Shown here one piece after another: positions 25,936 through 34,831 of a stretch of 34,831 bases of DNA. How positions within the stretch are numbered: position 1 is the first letter of the stretch; every line of letters begins with the position of its first letter. Source of the DNA: an uncultured Mycoplasmatota bacterium (GTDB lineage Bacteria; Bacillota_I; Bacilli_A; RF39; UBA660). The notes under the pieces are model-generated. The model ran no database searches, was not told where the DNA came from, and saw nothing but the letters and a program-made list of their open reading frames with translations. The position numbers and the translations under genes are program-made. Location: positions 1-34,831 of the forward strand of contig CAMVED010000009.1 of the NCBI GenBank assembly GCA_947166445.1. Reading direction: 5' to 3'.

Positions 25936-27855
25936 TTATTTTACGACTTTTACCGTAGTTCCTGTTGGTACATTATTATATATATATTTTGCTGTTTTGA
26001 AAGGTAAATTTATGCATCCATGAGAACCATTGTATGTATATATATCCCCTCCGAAAGTCCATCTCCAAGTTGCATCGTGTAATCCAATATCGCCATATAT
26101 TGGCATCCAATAGTTTACAAAACTTTTGTAGTCTGGACCTATTAGATAAATCTCTCTTGCTTTACCTCTTATTTTAAATGTTCCTGTAGGTGTATCATGC
26201 ACATACTTTTGGCCTGTTACTATCAATGATGTGTATTGTACTTTACCATATTTATAATACCATAATTTTTGTTTTGAAATTGATACTTTAATATATGGTG
26301 CAGGTGGTTTTTTCTTGAATTTTGCTACATATGTAAAAGATGAATTTTTTACTAAGGTGAAATTTGATTTTTTCGAAATTCTTTTGCTTCCTTTGTACCA
26401 CCCTAAAAAGTTATAATCACTATTTGGTTTAGCTTTCAGATAGTGTTTGCGCTTATTATTAGTCTTAGCATAATTAACAGAAATTGTACCACCTTTTTCT
26501 GCTTTGATAACTGCTTTTTGTTTCGTAGGCGCGAAATTGTATTCAATATATGTTATAGGATTATTAGCGGCTTTAATTGAATTTATATTTTTACTACCTT
26601 TTACTACTAGTTTTGTAATATTGTTGTTGGAAACGTTTACTTTTCTTAATGAAATAGCATCTGTTATATTTACTGATTTTATTTTATTGTTTGGCACAGA
26701 TATATTTTCAAGTGCAGTGAATGATTTTAGATTAAGTGATCCATATATTAATCTTTTTTCTGGCCAATATATTTTTTTAACTCTACCATAACCATTAGTT
26801 ATTGAATTAATATCGTTTTTTGAAAACCACGTAGCCGAATTACTACTGTCATATGCTGAATTTATTTTTTTACCATTTGATTTTCCATTTTCTTTAATAT
26901 TCATAAAAACTTTTAAAGCGCTTCGTTCACTACTTTTTGATATATATTTTATATTATTACTTCCAGCATATGTTTTGAAAGCTATATGAGTTTTTGATAG
27001 TTCTTCGATGTTAGGATCAAAATATTTGTTTTGATAGTCATCTGATTCATTTAATTCATTTTGATTTGGATTTTCGTTTTTATCTTCATCTTCCGTATCA
27101 TTATCTTGTATATCATCAATGTTTTCTTTTTCTGTTATTTCATTTTCTAAATTATCTATGTACTCACCTGTTATATCATTATACTCTTTATATGAGTCTG
27201 CTGTTGGATCAAACATTCTCCAGCAATTATCAACATAAGCTTCTGCCCAAACATGATTAATACTTTTATTATCTACATTGAATTCCCAGTCGTTGTAGTT
27301 ATCTCTTGCATTTTTATTGTAATATCCTCCTACCAAACGAGCAGGAATGTTTTGTGTTCTAGCAAGCGCTATTAATGTTGCTGTATATCCATTTGCTCTT
27401 GCCCTTACTTTTCCATAAATTTCATATTCATATATTAATAGATAATATGGGTTATCATATCTCTTGTCAAAAGATAAACCTGTTATACGATCTGGAGTTT
27501 CATAGTAATAATAATTATCTAAAATCCAATCATAAAACTTTTCTAACTTTTCTACGTCAGAAAAACTATTTGGATTCCCTTCCAAAATAGTATTGTTTGC
27601 TAAATCCTTAAGTTTGTTTTGTTGTGTTGTAGTTAATGCTGTGTAATTAGATTCTTCCAATTCTTTTAAAGATAAATCAAGATAACTACTTCTATAAACA
27701 CTACTCATGTTATTGGCTTCAGTTATCATTTTATTATTTTGATCGATTCTTGATTCAATATTTTCAAACGTGTCAGCTTTAACTGAAGAACACACGCAGA
27801 TTAAGGCAAAAAATAAAGAAGCATATATTATGTTTTTTAATTTTAACAAGTTCAT
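25936..27855 (-). CDS. Secreted multidomain protein: transglutaminase-like (Cys replaced) + LRR-like + InlB-B-like repeat + L,D-transpeptidase (YkuD)
   Basis: Signal peptide; RARANGYTATLIALARTQNIPARLVGGYYN...NHVWAEAYVDNCWRMFDPT; LKSFTALENISVPNNKIKSVNITDAISLRKVNVSNNNITKL; YNFLGWYKGSKRISKKSNFTL; TPTGTFKI...GLHDATWRWTFGGDIYTYNGSHGCINLP. Confidence 0.88.
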   Translation of the reverse strand: MNLLKLKNIIYASLFFALICVCSSVKADTFENIESRIDQNNKMITEANNMSSVYRSSYLDLSLKELEESNYTALTTTQQNKLKDLANNTILEGNPNSFSDVEKLEKFYDWILDNYYYYETPDRITGLSFDKRYDNPYYLLIYEYEIYGKVRARANGYTATLIALARTQNIPARLVGGYYNKNARDNYNDWEFNVDNKSINHVWAEAYVDNCWRMFDPTADSYKEYNDITGEYIDNLENEITEKENIDDIQDNDTEDEDKNENPNQNELNESDDYQNKYFDPNIEELSKTHIAFKTYAGSNNIKYISKSSERSALKVFMNIKENGKSNGKKINSAYDSSNSATWFSKNDINSITNGYGRVKKIYWPEKRLIYGSLNLKSFTALENISVPNNKIKSVNITDAISLRKVNVSNNNITKLVVKGSKNINSIKAANNPITYIEYNFAPTKQKAVIKAEKGGTISVNYAKTNNKRKHYLKAKPNSDYNFLGWYKGSKRISKKSNFTLVKNSSFTYVAKFKKKPPAPYIKVSISKQKLWYYKYGKVQYTSLIVTGQKYVHDTPTGTFKIRGKAREIYLIGPDYKSFVNYWMPIYGDIGLHDATWRWTFGGDIYTYNGSHGCINLPFKTAKYIYNNVPTGTTVKVVK

Positions 27856-31908: not shown

Positions 31909-32652
31909 TTAACTGACTCCATCATCTCCAGCTGTGTTGCTGTTTATTTTGGAAAAATTGTCATCAAATGGATATGATACTTTAAACCCATAGTTAACGT
32001 CACTACCAATTATGTAAATTGGATATTCAATTACAAGAAAATAATCTTCTATTTGTATAGTAAAATCTGTCTTTTTAAAATCAATATATTTTTGGTTTGG
32101 AAGTCTTTCAAAAGTATTATTGTATTTAATTCCGTATTTATCATCTGTTTTGTCTTTATTAGCAGCAATGACGCTATAACTTGGTACTATTGCACCATTT
32201 ACTTTTTCTGACGATACACTATCATAATAAGCATAAACTACACATGGGTAATAATTATTACACATTTCATTTAAATCTTTAGTACCTTGTATATTTAATA
32301 TATTATTTTCTTCTTGTTTTGAAACCTTAACTTTCAAAATACCATCAACTATTCCGCAAGAATTGTCACCAGAACCGCAATCATTATTAATGGTATAACT
32401 TTTATTATAATCTAAATACCAATTAGTTGAAGCATTTTGTTTAATGGCAATAGCAAATGGTTTTTTTGTTAGCAAATCATAATGAATATCATTGTTTAAA
32501 AAATTAGAGTATTCAGTTATATCTTTAGTAATTTGTTGGTTATCTAAATCTATTTTAGCATCTAAAATCAAGTTAAACATTCCTACAATTATTATCATCA
32601 GAAGTGAAAAAGTTATAAGCAGTTCTACTAAAGTCATTCCTTTATTATTCAT
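31909..32652 (-). CDS. Type IV prepilin-like protein
   Basis: MNNKG^MTLVELLITFSLLMIIIVGMFNLI: class III leader with Glu+5. Confidence 0.85.
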   Translation of the reverse strand: MNNKGMTLVELLITFSLLMIIIVGMFNLILDAKIDLDNQQITKDITEYSNFLNNDIHYDLLTKKPFAIAIKQNASTNWYLDYNKSYTINNDCGSGDNSCGIVDGILKVKVSKQEENNILNIQGTKDLNEMCNNYYPCVVYAYYDSVSSEKVNGAIVPSYSVIAANKDKTDDKYGIKYNNTFERLPNQKYIDFKKTDFTIQIEDYFLVIEYPIYIIGSDVNYGFKVSYPFDDNFSKINSNTAGDDGVS

Positions 32653-32673: not shown

Positions 32674-34554
32674 CTAATTATCAATATAAGTAATATATTT
32701 TGTATTACTACCATTTTTATATATTGATATGGGACCATTTGTTGAAACAGCTTCTGTACATCCTGAATCTCCATAAAAAGCTTTGCACCAAGTGTTATTC
32801 CAGTTTGTAACAAGCGATATATTACTATTAATAATAATGTCTGTAGTATTATTACCTAATGTATAATTATCTCCAAATATGTTTTTACCAATATAAGTTC
32901 CATCTGTAATTAAATTTTGAGGAATTATAAACGTTTTAAACTTGTTGCCACTAAAAGCAAAATCTCCAATTGTACTTAGATTACTATTCTCTGTTAAACT
33001 ATCAAATACTATTCCTGATAAAGCTTGGTTTTCAAAAGCTTGGTTTCCAATAGTCGTCACACTAACAGGTATTTTAATACTTCTTGTTTCTATTTTTGTT
33101 TCATCAGTTTCTTTTACTTTTACTTTAAACGCAGAATTTCCAATGGTTTCCAAACTTGAATGTTCTTTTCCATCTGGCGTACTATTTGTCTCAAAGACTA
33201 ATGCTTCTATTTTTACATTTTCAAATGCAGAAGAAGATATTTTTTGAACTGTATGAGGAATTGATAAACTAATATAGTTATTAGGGTCAAGATTATCAAA
33301 TAATTCTTCATCTATTCCAAATGCAGAAGTTTCAATAGTATGAAGTCGACTTGGATTTGAATCACTATTTTCAAATCTTATTGAAGAGAATTGTATGTTT
33401 TTAAAAGCATTTGCTTGAATACTTGTTATGTTAGCAGGAATCACTAATTCAATTAAATAATTATTCGTTTTTCCAGTATTACCTTCTAAACCAAACATAT
33501 TTTTAGGAATATATTTATCAGGTGTAGTACTATCATAATCAAATTCTATTGCTTGTAATAAGTAATTGTTAGCAAAAGCACCTTCACTTATTTTAGTTAG
33601 ATTGCTTGGTATAGAAATATTAGTAAGTTTATTGTTACTAAAGGCATACTTTCCTATTGTTGTAACTCCTGGAGCATTATATTTAAAACTGAATTTCTTT
33701 ATATTGTTATCCTTAAAAGCATAATCTCCAATACTTGTTATATTTTTAGATAAATTAATGCTTGTTATTTCTTTATCTTGGAAGGCTCCTTTTTTAGTTT
33801 CATCATCACCCATAATAGCTGTAATTATACCTGTTTTAGCATTACTTCCAGTGCCTATAGTTATTTCATTAGGAGTAATATCAACATTTTGACCGCATCC
33901 TTTATGATAGTTTGTTATAATAAACTTGCCAGTGTTTAAACTATTTTTATCAAATTCAAAACAACTAACAGGTGTTAAAGGATCTGGTAGTATTTGGGTT
34001 GTGGCAAAACCAGACTTTGATTTTAATATTATTCTATATGGTTCTGCAACTTTGCCTTCATATACTGCCAAAGAGTAATATGGCAAATAATTTATATAGT
34101 TATATAATGAGCCAGAGCTTTTCTTATACCTAGTTGGAGCATTAGCCTCTTGGTTTCTTCCTTTTAAATTGTCTAATTTATAATTTGTTATAATTATTTC
34201 TTCAATATCATATTCATCAATTATATCTTCTAATTGGCTTTTTAATTCCCCAGATACAAGTTGGGCTTCGTCTATACTACTCTTTTTATAAACAGTATAG
34301 TAACTATCATGTGTCAAACCATCGTTAAGTGTAGCTTTAACTTGGGAATCTTCTAAAGCTGTTTTATATATTTTTCTAACATAAAATGCGCCATAATTAG
34401 CGGTAACATCAGTATATAAAATTCTATTTTCAAATTCTGATACTAATGGTAAATAATTAGCAAACAAAATAGAAAACAATAATAAAATTACTATAGAGGC
34501 TGCCAAAAGTTCAGACATTGCAAATCCTTTTATACCCAAAATATTTTTTTTCAT
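32674..34554 (-). CDS. Prepilin-like N-terminus fused to BspA-type leucine-rich repeats
   Basis: MKKNILGIKG^FAMSELLAASIVILLLFSILF leader, then repeats ITSIGDYAFKDN, VTTIGKYAFSNN, LTKISEGAFANN, ITSIQANAFKN, VQKISSSAFEN, LETIGNSAFK, VTTIGNQAFEN, LSTIGDFAFSGN. RBS gggaggg supports start 34554. Confidence 0.88.
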   Translation of the reverse strand: MKKNILGIKGFAMSELLAASIVILLLFSILFANYLPLVSEFENRILYTDVTANYGAFYVRKIYKTALEDSQVKATLNDGLTHDSYYTVYKKSSIDEAQLVSGELKSQLEDIIDEYDIEEIIITNYKLDNLKGRNQEANAPTRYKKSSGSLYNYINYLPYYSLAVYEGKVAEPYRIILKSKSGFATTQILPDPLTPVSCFEFDKNSLNTGKFIITNYHKGCGQNVDITPNEITIGTGSNAKTGIITAIMGDDETKKGAFQDKEITSINLSKNITSIGDYAFKDNNIKKFSFKYNAPGVTTIGKYAFSNNKLTNISIPSNLTKISEGAFANNYLLQAIEFDYDSTTPDKYIPKNMFGLEGNTGKTNNYLIELVIPANITSIQANAFKNIQFSSIRFENSDSNPSRLHTIETSAFGIDEELFDNLDPNNYISLSIPHTVQKISSSAFENVKIEALVFETNSTPDGKEHSSLETIGNSAFKVKVKETDETKIETRSIKIPVSVTTIGNQAFENQALSGIVFDSLTENSNLSTIGDFAFSGNKFKTFIIPQNLITDGTYIGKNIFGDNYTLGNNTTDIIINSNISLVTNWNNTWCKAFYGDSGCTEAVSTNGPISIYKNGSNTKYITYIDN

Positions 34555-34658: not shown

Positions 34659-34831
34659 ATGATGAAAGAGTTTAATTTTACAACTACACCGATTGTTAAT
34701 ATTGTAAACGAAATTATAATAGATTCAGTTGTCAGAAATGCAAGTGATATTCATTTTGACCCCGCTGAAGATTATTTAAAAATCAGAATTAGAATAGATG
34801 GAGATTTAAGAGATTATACAATTGTTGATAA
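34659..34831 (+). CDS. Type II/IV secretion / type IV pilus assembly ATPase (PilB/GspE/ComGA-like), truncated by window end
   Basis: MMKEFNFTTTPIVNIVNEIIIDSVVRNASDIHFDPAEDYLKIRIRIDGDLRDYTIVD...; ASDIHFDP and RIDGDL motifs; RBS aaaagggg. Not in the ORF track. Confidence 0.85.
   Translation, partial: MMKEFNFTTTPIVNIVNEIIIDSVVRNASDIHFDPAEDYLKIRIRIDGDLRDYTIVD

Follow-up and report, generated by a model that had tools for sequence, protein, structure and literature searches.

The 626-amino-acid open reading frame (ORF) at positions 32674 to 34554 on the reverse strand was predicted to encode a modular type IV prepilin carrying a leucine-rich-repeat (LRR_5) module. The reading that we favor, with a probability of roughly 70%, is that this protein is a minor pilin, probably of a tip complex, that displays its LRR solenoid outside the cell as an adhesive module, with a conserved carrier and an exchanged C terminus. 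The window (the whole 34,831-bp stretch of DNA analyzed) is the entire contig C9 of a 755-kb genome with an estimated completeness of 52.7%. The same pilB-linked gene is a slot found across this family of gut Bacilli and bears several kinds of module, of which the LRR is one; since the slot in relatives carries other domains (several of them lectin-like) or none, the gene resembles an exchangeable mount for pilus display. The protein is termed the slot pilin below.

The slot pilin ORF was complete, as delimited in the first-pass annotation, from an ATG at 34554 to the end of the stop codon at 32674, with GGGAGGG immediately 5' of the ATG. The predicted leader peptide (MKKNILGIKG; residues 1 to 10; positions 34525 to 34554, reverse strand) ends at a putative cut between G10 and F11. 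Direct reading of the N terminus, MKKNILGIKG|FAMSELLAASIVILLLFSILFANYLP, revealed a class III signal peptide (G or A at -1, a hydrophobic tract, and E at +5), here with G at -1, F at +1, and E at +5 ahead of the hydrophobic stretch. F11 and E15 were invariant in an alignment of nine slot pilin orthologues, and the -1 residue was G or A in most. The prepilin signature first reported for this ORF (here GIKG|FAMSE) held up. The Pfam N_methyl profile (PF07963), which had been proposed as a check, gave no matches to the slot pilin at an E value of ≤1; the prepilin encoded downstream does match, and L078, kin of a bare slot relative, was matched weakly (E = 0.002). The missing match was treated as insensitivity of a short profile to a divergent leader rather than as disproof, and because Pfam N_methyl misses such a leader, proteins combining a pilin with LRR_5 may be undercounted in databases. 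The slot pilin contained no LPXTG motif, in agreement with the proposal that its export does not involve sortase. An ordinary Sec-exported, membrane-anchored LRR protein with a merely prepilin-like N terminus is very improbable: the hydrophobic helix could serve Sec, and other LRR_5 proteins of the family have Sec-type N termini by eye (e.g., L136 of genome G309), but F+1 and E+5 are invariant in divergent orthologues, the sequences following the helix (ANYLP, SNFLP, RNFVP, and TNFYP) have no conserved AXA site, the gene stays tightly linked to pilB and to a further prepilin gene, and both leader and genomic position mark the bare orthologues as pilins.

The pilin module (residues 11 to 191; positions 33982 to 34524, reverse strand) was delimited by end-to-end alignment with bare orthologues of 150 to 230 amino acids. 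These orthologues align to residues 1 to 191 and end there, which identifies the pilin part as a unit. An alpha1 helix was predicted by AlphaFold2 with low to moderate confidence at residues 11 to 66 (positions 34357 to 34524, reverse strand). The full-length model contained helices at residues 8 to 44 and 47 to 66, followed by a small alpha/beta part (pLDDT 76, four sequences), and the module modeled alone contained helices at residues 6 to 42 and 50 to 66 (pLDDT 69, a weak model from only four sequences). The predicted head, a long helix with four strands, was of low confidence in both models and had no pilin match in the PDB; a fold search of the weak, four-sequence module model against the PDB produced no usable match. 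At best, the slot alignment profile weakly matched the helix of geopilin among solved structures (E = 0.02). Given the weak head model and the lack of a PDB match, pilin identity was assigned from leader, orthology, and locus, not from fold. Of the extended alpha1 helix docked to a pilin core that the first-pass annotation expected, the long helix was thus predicted, while helix and head remained of low confidence.

Behind this module lies an LRR_5/BspA solenoid with an N-cap (residues 192 to 570; positions 32845 to 33981, reverse strand), followed by a C-terminal cap (residues 571 to 626; positions 32677 to 32844, reverse strand) that was modeled as a helix and hairpin, contains C590 and C599, and has W-C and Y..K.I.Y motifs conserved in the genus. 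PF13306 (LRR_5) matched the slot pilin in three stretches (115.3 bits; cutoff, 27.7; E = 2e-33). IPR026906 is the InterPro entry for PF13306. Ten IxxxAF/MF cores were found in residues 196 to 626, whereas 10,000 shuffles gave 0.17 on average and never more than 3. The repeats are therefore not a product of chance, and the earlier estimate of about nine was right. AlphaFold2 modeled the solenoid from about residue 210 to 560, mostly with good confidence, and its nearest solved structures (Foldseek) were BspA-type surface LRR proteins, including pneumococcal PcpA. The solenoid is flanked by the cysteine pairs 198/220 and 590/599, which are retained within the genus and could be disulfide caps. 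The NCBIfam adhesin model HupY/LrrG matched partially (55.7 bits; cutoff, 1,250). The slot pilin was the sole LRR_5 protein in the examined part of the genome, and its PF13306 domain, which is not peculiar to pili, lies C-terminal to a pilin module that stands alone in relatives. Elsewhere in the window (positions 25936 to 27855), a 639-amino-acid protein had an unusual combination for a cell wall enzyme, with a transglutaminase core, weak LRR matches, an InlB B-type repeat, and a C-terminal YkuD L,D-transpeptidase.

The genes surrounding the slot pilin gene were those of a pilus locus. The start of pilB, annotated as encoding a GspE/PilB extension ATPase (PF00437), lies at positions 34659 to 34831 on the forward strand, divergent from the slot pilin gene, and continues on contig C6. 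The last 55 bases of C9 (positions 34777 to 34831) exactly match the end of C6 in reverse complement, and the pilB frame continues across them; the two contigs are very probably adjacent, with the assembly break inside pilB. A J/ComGF-like second prepilin of 247 amino acids, identified by synteny and an N_methyl match over the cutoff, is encoded 21 bp downstream of the slot pilin gene (positions 31909 to 32652, reverse strand) and scored 12 to 15 bits against the ComGE, ComGF, and ComGD models, below their cutoffs of 49 to 80. The divergent pilB at 34659, this second prepilin at 31909 to 32652, and the genus-conserved cysteine pairs are additions to the first-pass annotation. Contig C6 also holds genes for PilC and a prepilin peptidase (A24, with CxxC pairs), apart from the pilin pair, and the peptidase gene on which the original proposal depended is thus present in the genome. 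Four more prepilins above the N_methyl cutoff are encoded elsewhere in this genome. Two further ORFs of the same genome were observed: another large prepilin on contig C14 (478 amino acids; N_methyl and DUF6273; L036:5200-6636) and, on contig C10 directly downstream of a small prepilin gene, a 1,096-amino-acid protein with M23 peptidase, SpoIID, and C39-like peptidase domains (L037:6632-9922).

The same locus bears on whether the pilus is instead of the Com type and captures DNA for competence, with the slot pilin as a ComGD/ComGE-like tip subunit and the LRR as an auxiliary part for touching the cell wall or assisting in DNA holding rather than as an adhesin for host or partner cells. A ComEC gene was present in the genome (PF03772; E = 3e-45; contig C4) and in eight of nine relatives checked, no PilT was recognized beside PilB in the genome, and seven of nine slot pilins weakly matched the ComGD model (best E = 4.9e-4), the slot pilin of the window itself having no match to that model. 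In the Com pilus, the tip complex consists of four minor pilins, of which ComGD to ComGF bind DNA (PMC12153270). This alternative appears unlikely: the weak ComGD/ComGE matches may stem from nothing more than the N-terminal helix, the genes are not arranged as comGA to comGG, and the lectin-like, LRR, and glycine-rich modules found at the same place in relatives favor varied ligands over DNA alone. Com-type and adhesin roles of one pilus can coexist. As for a second pilus motor, the remaining strong hits to PF00437 were tentatively assigned to a Tad ATPase and not to PilT, based on match length and on TadE-like neighbors in genome G002. In G002, which is of the same genus, a T2SSE-type ATPase gene adjoins TadE-like small pilin genes (L114, contig C58), probably a Tad system, and neither a slot pilin match nor a close pilB was found.

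The fusion was not restricted to this genome. Three other species of the genus (G003, G004, and G001) carry the same fusion beside a divergent pilB in the same gene order, with 56, 39, and 41% identity to the protein in the window, and three public metagenome-assembled genome records (Bacilli/Erysipelotrichaceae) carry it as well, from rabbit, rumen, and goat omasum (rabbit and rumen being read from the record names). An assembly artifact as the source of the fusion was ruled out by these genomes and records. Among plasmid records, only partial LRR matches were found and no full-length relative of the slot pilin. Identity within the genus was lower for the LRR part (27 to 55%) than for the pilin part (47 to 65%) in every pair, and this faster divergence of the LRR was counted in favor of an adhesive minor pilin.

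Across the family, the pilin-module profile matched 224 of 243 genomes, and an open frame of at least 330 amino acids was present in 25 of 146 genomes (about 17%) among the matches listed. Twenty long stretches were read, and more long and bare forms were added from an order-wide search. Most of the other genera examined kept the order of pilB and the J-like prepilin gene, and the pilin between them was bare or carried a different module; in most relatives it was bare, and the gene in the slot between the divergent pilB and the J-like pilin then encodes 150 to 230 amino acids. A divergent pilB was the direct neighbor in 15 of 19 examined contexts of long slot pilins, and the four pilins without this direct neighbor (G140, G253, G062, and G244) have a weaker claim to being the same slot. 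The graft point was mostly right behind the last pilin strand (YRxI...Y/FATIEV). In one bare species of genus g75, the next gene follows within some 15 bp of the stop codon, while the slot pilins of G399 and G309 of that genus carry 444 extra residues.

The grafted modules were diverse. Laminin_G_3, a ConA-like lectin module, was found on the slot pilins of G261, G110 (on two slot genes), G155, and G227 and, by eye, G099. Pfam matches to an ALK/LTK glycine-rich module were found in G140, G253, G171, G206, G116, and G239, to DUF6273 in G241, G068, G399, and G309, to DUF7507 with CBM49 in G090, and to DUF285, another LRR-like repeat, in G373. The slot of G444 contained a weak Listeria-Bacteroides repeat and further sequence, and the modules of other long slots had no Pfam name. 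The modules at this graft point were mostly ligand-binding folds (Laminin_G_3, DUF6273, DUF285, and CBM49-like), which was also counted in favor of adhesion. DUF6273 has been modeled as C-type-lectin-like, and DUF6273 domains of phage tentaclins are targets of diversity-generating retroelements (PMC10743442). As a source of module variation here, such a retroelement was rejected for the examined loci: no reverse transcriptase ORF was seen by eye among the neighbors, and there was no clear template-like repeat of the module 3' end.

Modules were also found on the neighboring pilin. The J-like pilin carries a glycine-rich module in G171 and DUF6273 in G239, so that in some species both neighboring pilins have modules, and the modules on the J-like pilins of G210 and G171 are homologous to those of their own slots (L101:8170-9837, L104:4544-5716, and L112:5060-6124). 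In G148, a bare and a long slot pilin adjoin each other. In G110 (L098, contig C30), the slot and J-like pair is tandemly duplicated beside pilB, and its two lectin-type slot pilins (634 and about 795 amino acids) share 83% identity over the last 78 bp. In G012, a 989-amino-acid modular pilin with N_methyl, five Listeria-Bacteroides (InlB-type) repeats, and an ALK/LTK glycine-rich module (contig C15, L033:2150-5119) is encoded a few kilobases from a bare slot pilin.

An unrooted tree was built from 72 pilin modules, with the grafted parts excluded. It required nine changes between bare and fused forms (9 to 10 in bootstrap trees), at least 8 of which were forced by well-supported branches. It also required 20 module changes among ten module labels, which were assigned by hand from Pfam hits and include "unknown" as a mixed bin. 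Long forms and bare sister species were deliberately oversampled, and these counts accordingly describe the sample and not a natural frequency. The four LRR_5 pilins formed one clade (99/97) and grouped, with support (100/96), with the bare pilin of G031 among mostly bare neighbors in the tree; this placement fits a single gain in the genus, gain and loss being formally inseparable on an unrooted tree. On balance, we think it rather probable that the pilB-linked slot pilin is a standing, family-wide exchange site that has gained, lost, and regained LRR, lectin-like, and other domains many times over, in some cases inside a single genus or following duplication of the slot and with homologous modules on the J-like pilin, and that pilus specificity thereby evolves by cut-and-paste at one locus.

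From these observations, we infer that the prepilin peptidase would cut the slot pilin after G10 and that the mature alpha1 helix would enter a filament driven by PilB and PilC. The slot pilin would probably join the initiating tip complex together with the neighboring J-like pilin, and this would keep the C-terminal LRR_5 solenoid on the cell exterior as a ligand-binding (adhesive) module. The pilin portion would serve as the conserved carrier, and exchange of the following part in evolution would place lineage-specific binding domains on the same subunit. The first-pass proposal of an LRR adhesin in or on a type IV pilus-like fiber was partly supported, by the leader, the pilus locus, the prepilin peptidase, PilC, the lack of an LPXTG motif, the predicted alpha1 helix, and the BspA-type LRR matches. 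The N_methyl search gave no match, and the helix and head were of low confidence in both models. Neither a missing helix nor a missing prepilin peptidase gene, either of which would have told against the proposal, was observed. The absent N_methyl match, the weak head model with no PDB pilin, and the incompleteness of the genome (52.7% complete) were counted against a minor pilin. Mature pilins sit in the membrane before assembly, and it is conceivable, if quite improbable, that the processed protein acts outside a long fiber, either within a short pseudopilus or as a membrane protein, with the LRR on the cell surface and the pilin helix as its anchor. No fiber has been observed for this family, and a solenoid of 45 kDa would be a bulky addition to a shaft, but the gene is coupled to pilB and the J-like prepilin gene across the family, and E+5, which is required for pilin assembly contacts, is invariant. 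Bulky modules are also tolerated at the tip in the Streptococcus sanguinis models.

The fusion of a pilin with LRR_5 is by itself already known, contrary to the novelty implied at first: the combination of IPR012902 with IPR026906 is among the 15 commonest modular-pilin architectures tabulated in 2021 (Raynaud et al., PMC8179133). That architecture shares with the slot pilin an N-terminal class III leader and a pilin module with LRR_5 grafted behind it, but there it is a database count with no locus, relatives, or function. In the open-access papers searched, no description was found of one orthologous pilin that was repeatedly rearmed at a fixed place, nor of any closer counterpart. Experimental precedents are PilB (vWA) and PilC (lectin) of S. 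sanguinis, modular minor pilins for which binding was demonstrated and tip position was modeled (PMC8179133, PMC9934059), whereas the slot pilin is known from sequence and models. Like these, it combines a small pilin module with a bulky C-terminal module in a monoderm, and the ConA-like lectin module of PilC is of the same kind (Laminin_G_3) as those on several of its relatives; unlike these, it carries an LRR solenoid rather than a vWA or lectin module, and its conserved place is beside a divergent pilB.

The Com pilus (T4dP; tip ComGD-ComGE-ComGF-ComGG) is likewise a monoderm system with one recognized extension ATPase, few minor pilins, and ComEC, but its minor pilins, as described, are small and have no grafted domains (PMC12153270), and scores at the locus in the window were below the ComG family cutoffs. 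Its gene order (comGA-comGB-comGC-GD-GE-GF-GG) also differs from a pilB divergent from two prepilin genes, with the peptidase gene and pilC apart on C6. BspA-type LRR_5 surface proteins (PcpA and the Bacteroides and Eubacterium structures) share the repeat family and solenoid fold; the PDB examples are secreted or displayed on the surface and are anchored in other ways, whereas here the LRR comes after a pilin module in a protein that lacks LPXTG. The PilC/PilY1 tip adhesins of diderm T4aP similarly present, at the pilus tip, variable effector domains on a constant carrier, but their carrier is not a pilin, whereas the carrier here is itself one.

By itself, the protein adds one case to the known modular pilins, and its value lies in the natural series of bare and armed orthologues at one locus. 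Because the boundary between carrier and module can be read from this series, the cut-and-paste model of pilus versatility becomes directly testable. The series also suggests that many unnamed ORFs of 160 to 230 amino acids adjoining pilB encode minor pilins, and it offers LRR_5, DUF285, DUF6273, and the glycine-rich domain as candidate receptor domains through which uncultured gut bacteria may bind ligands of a host or partner.
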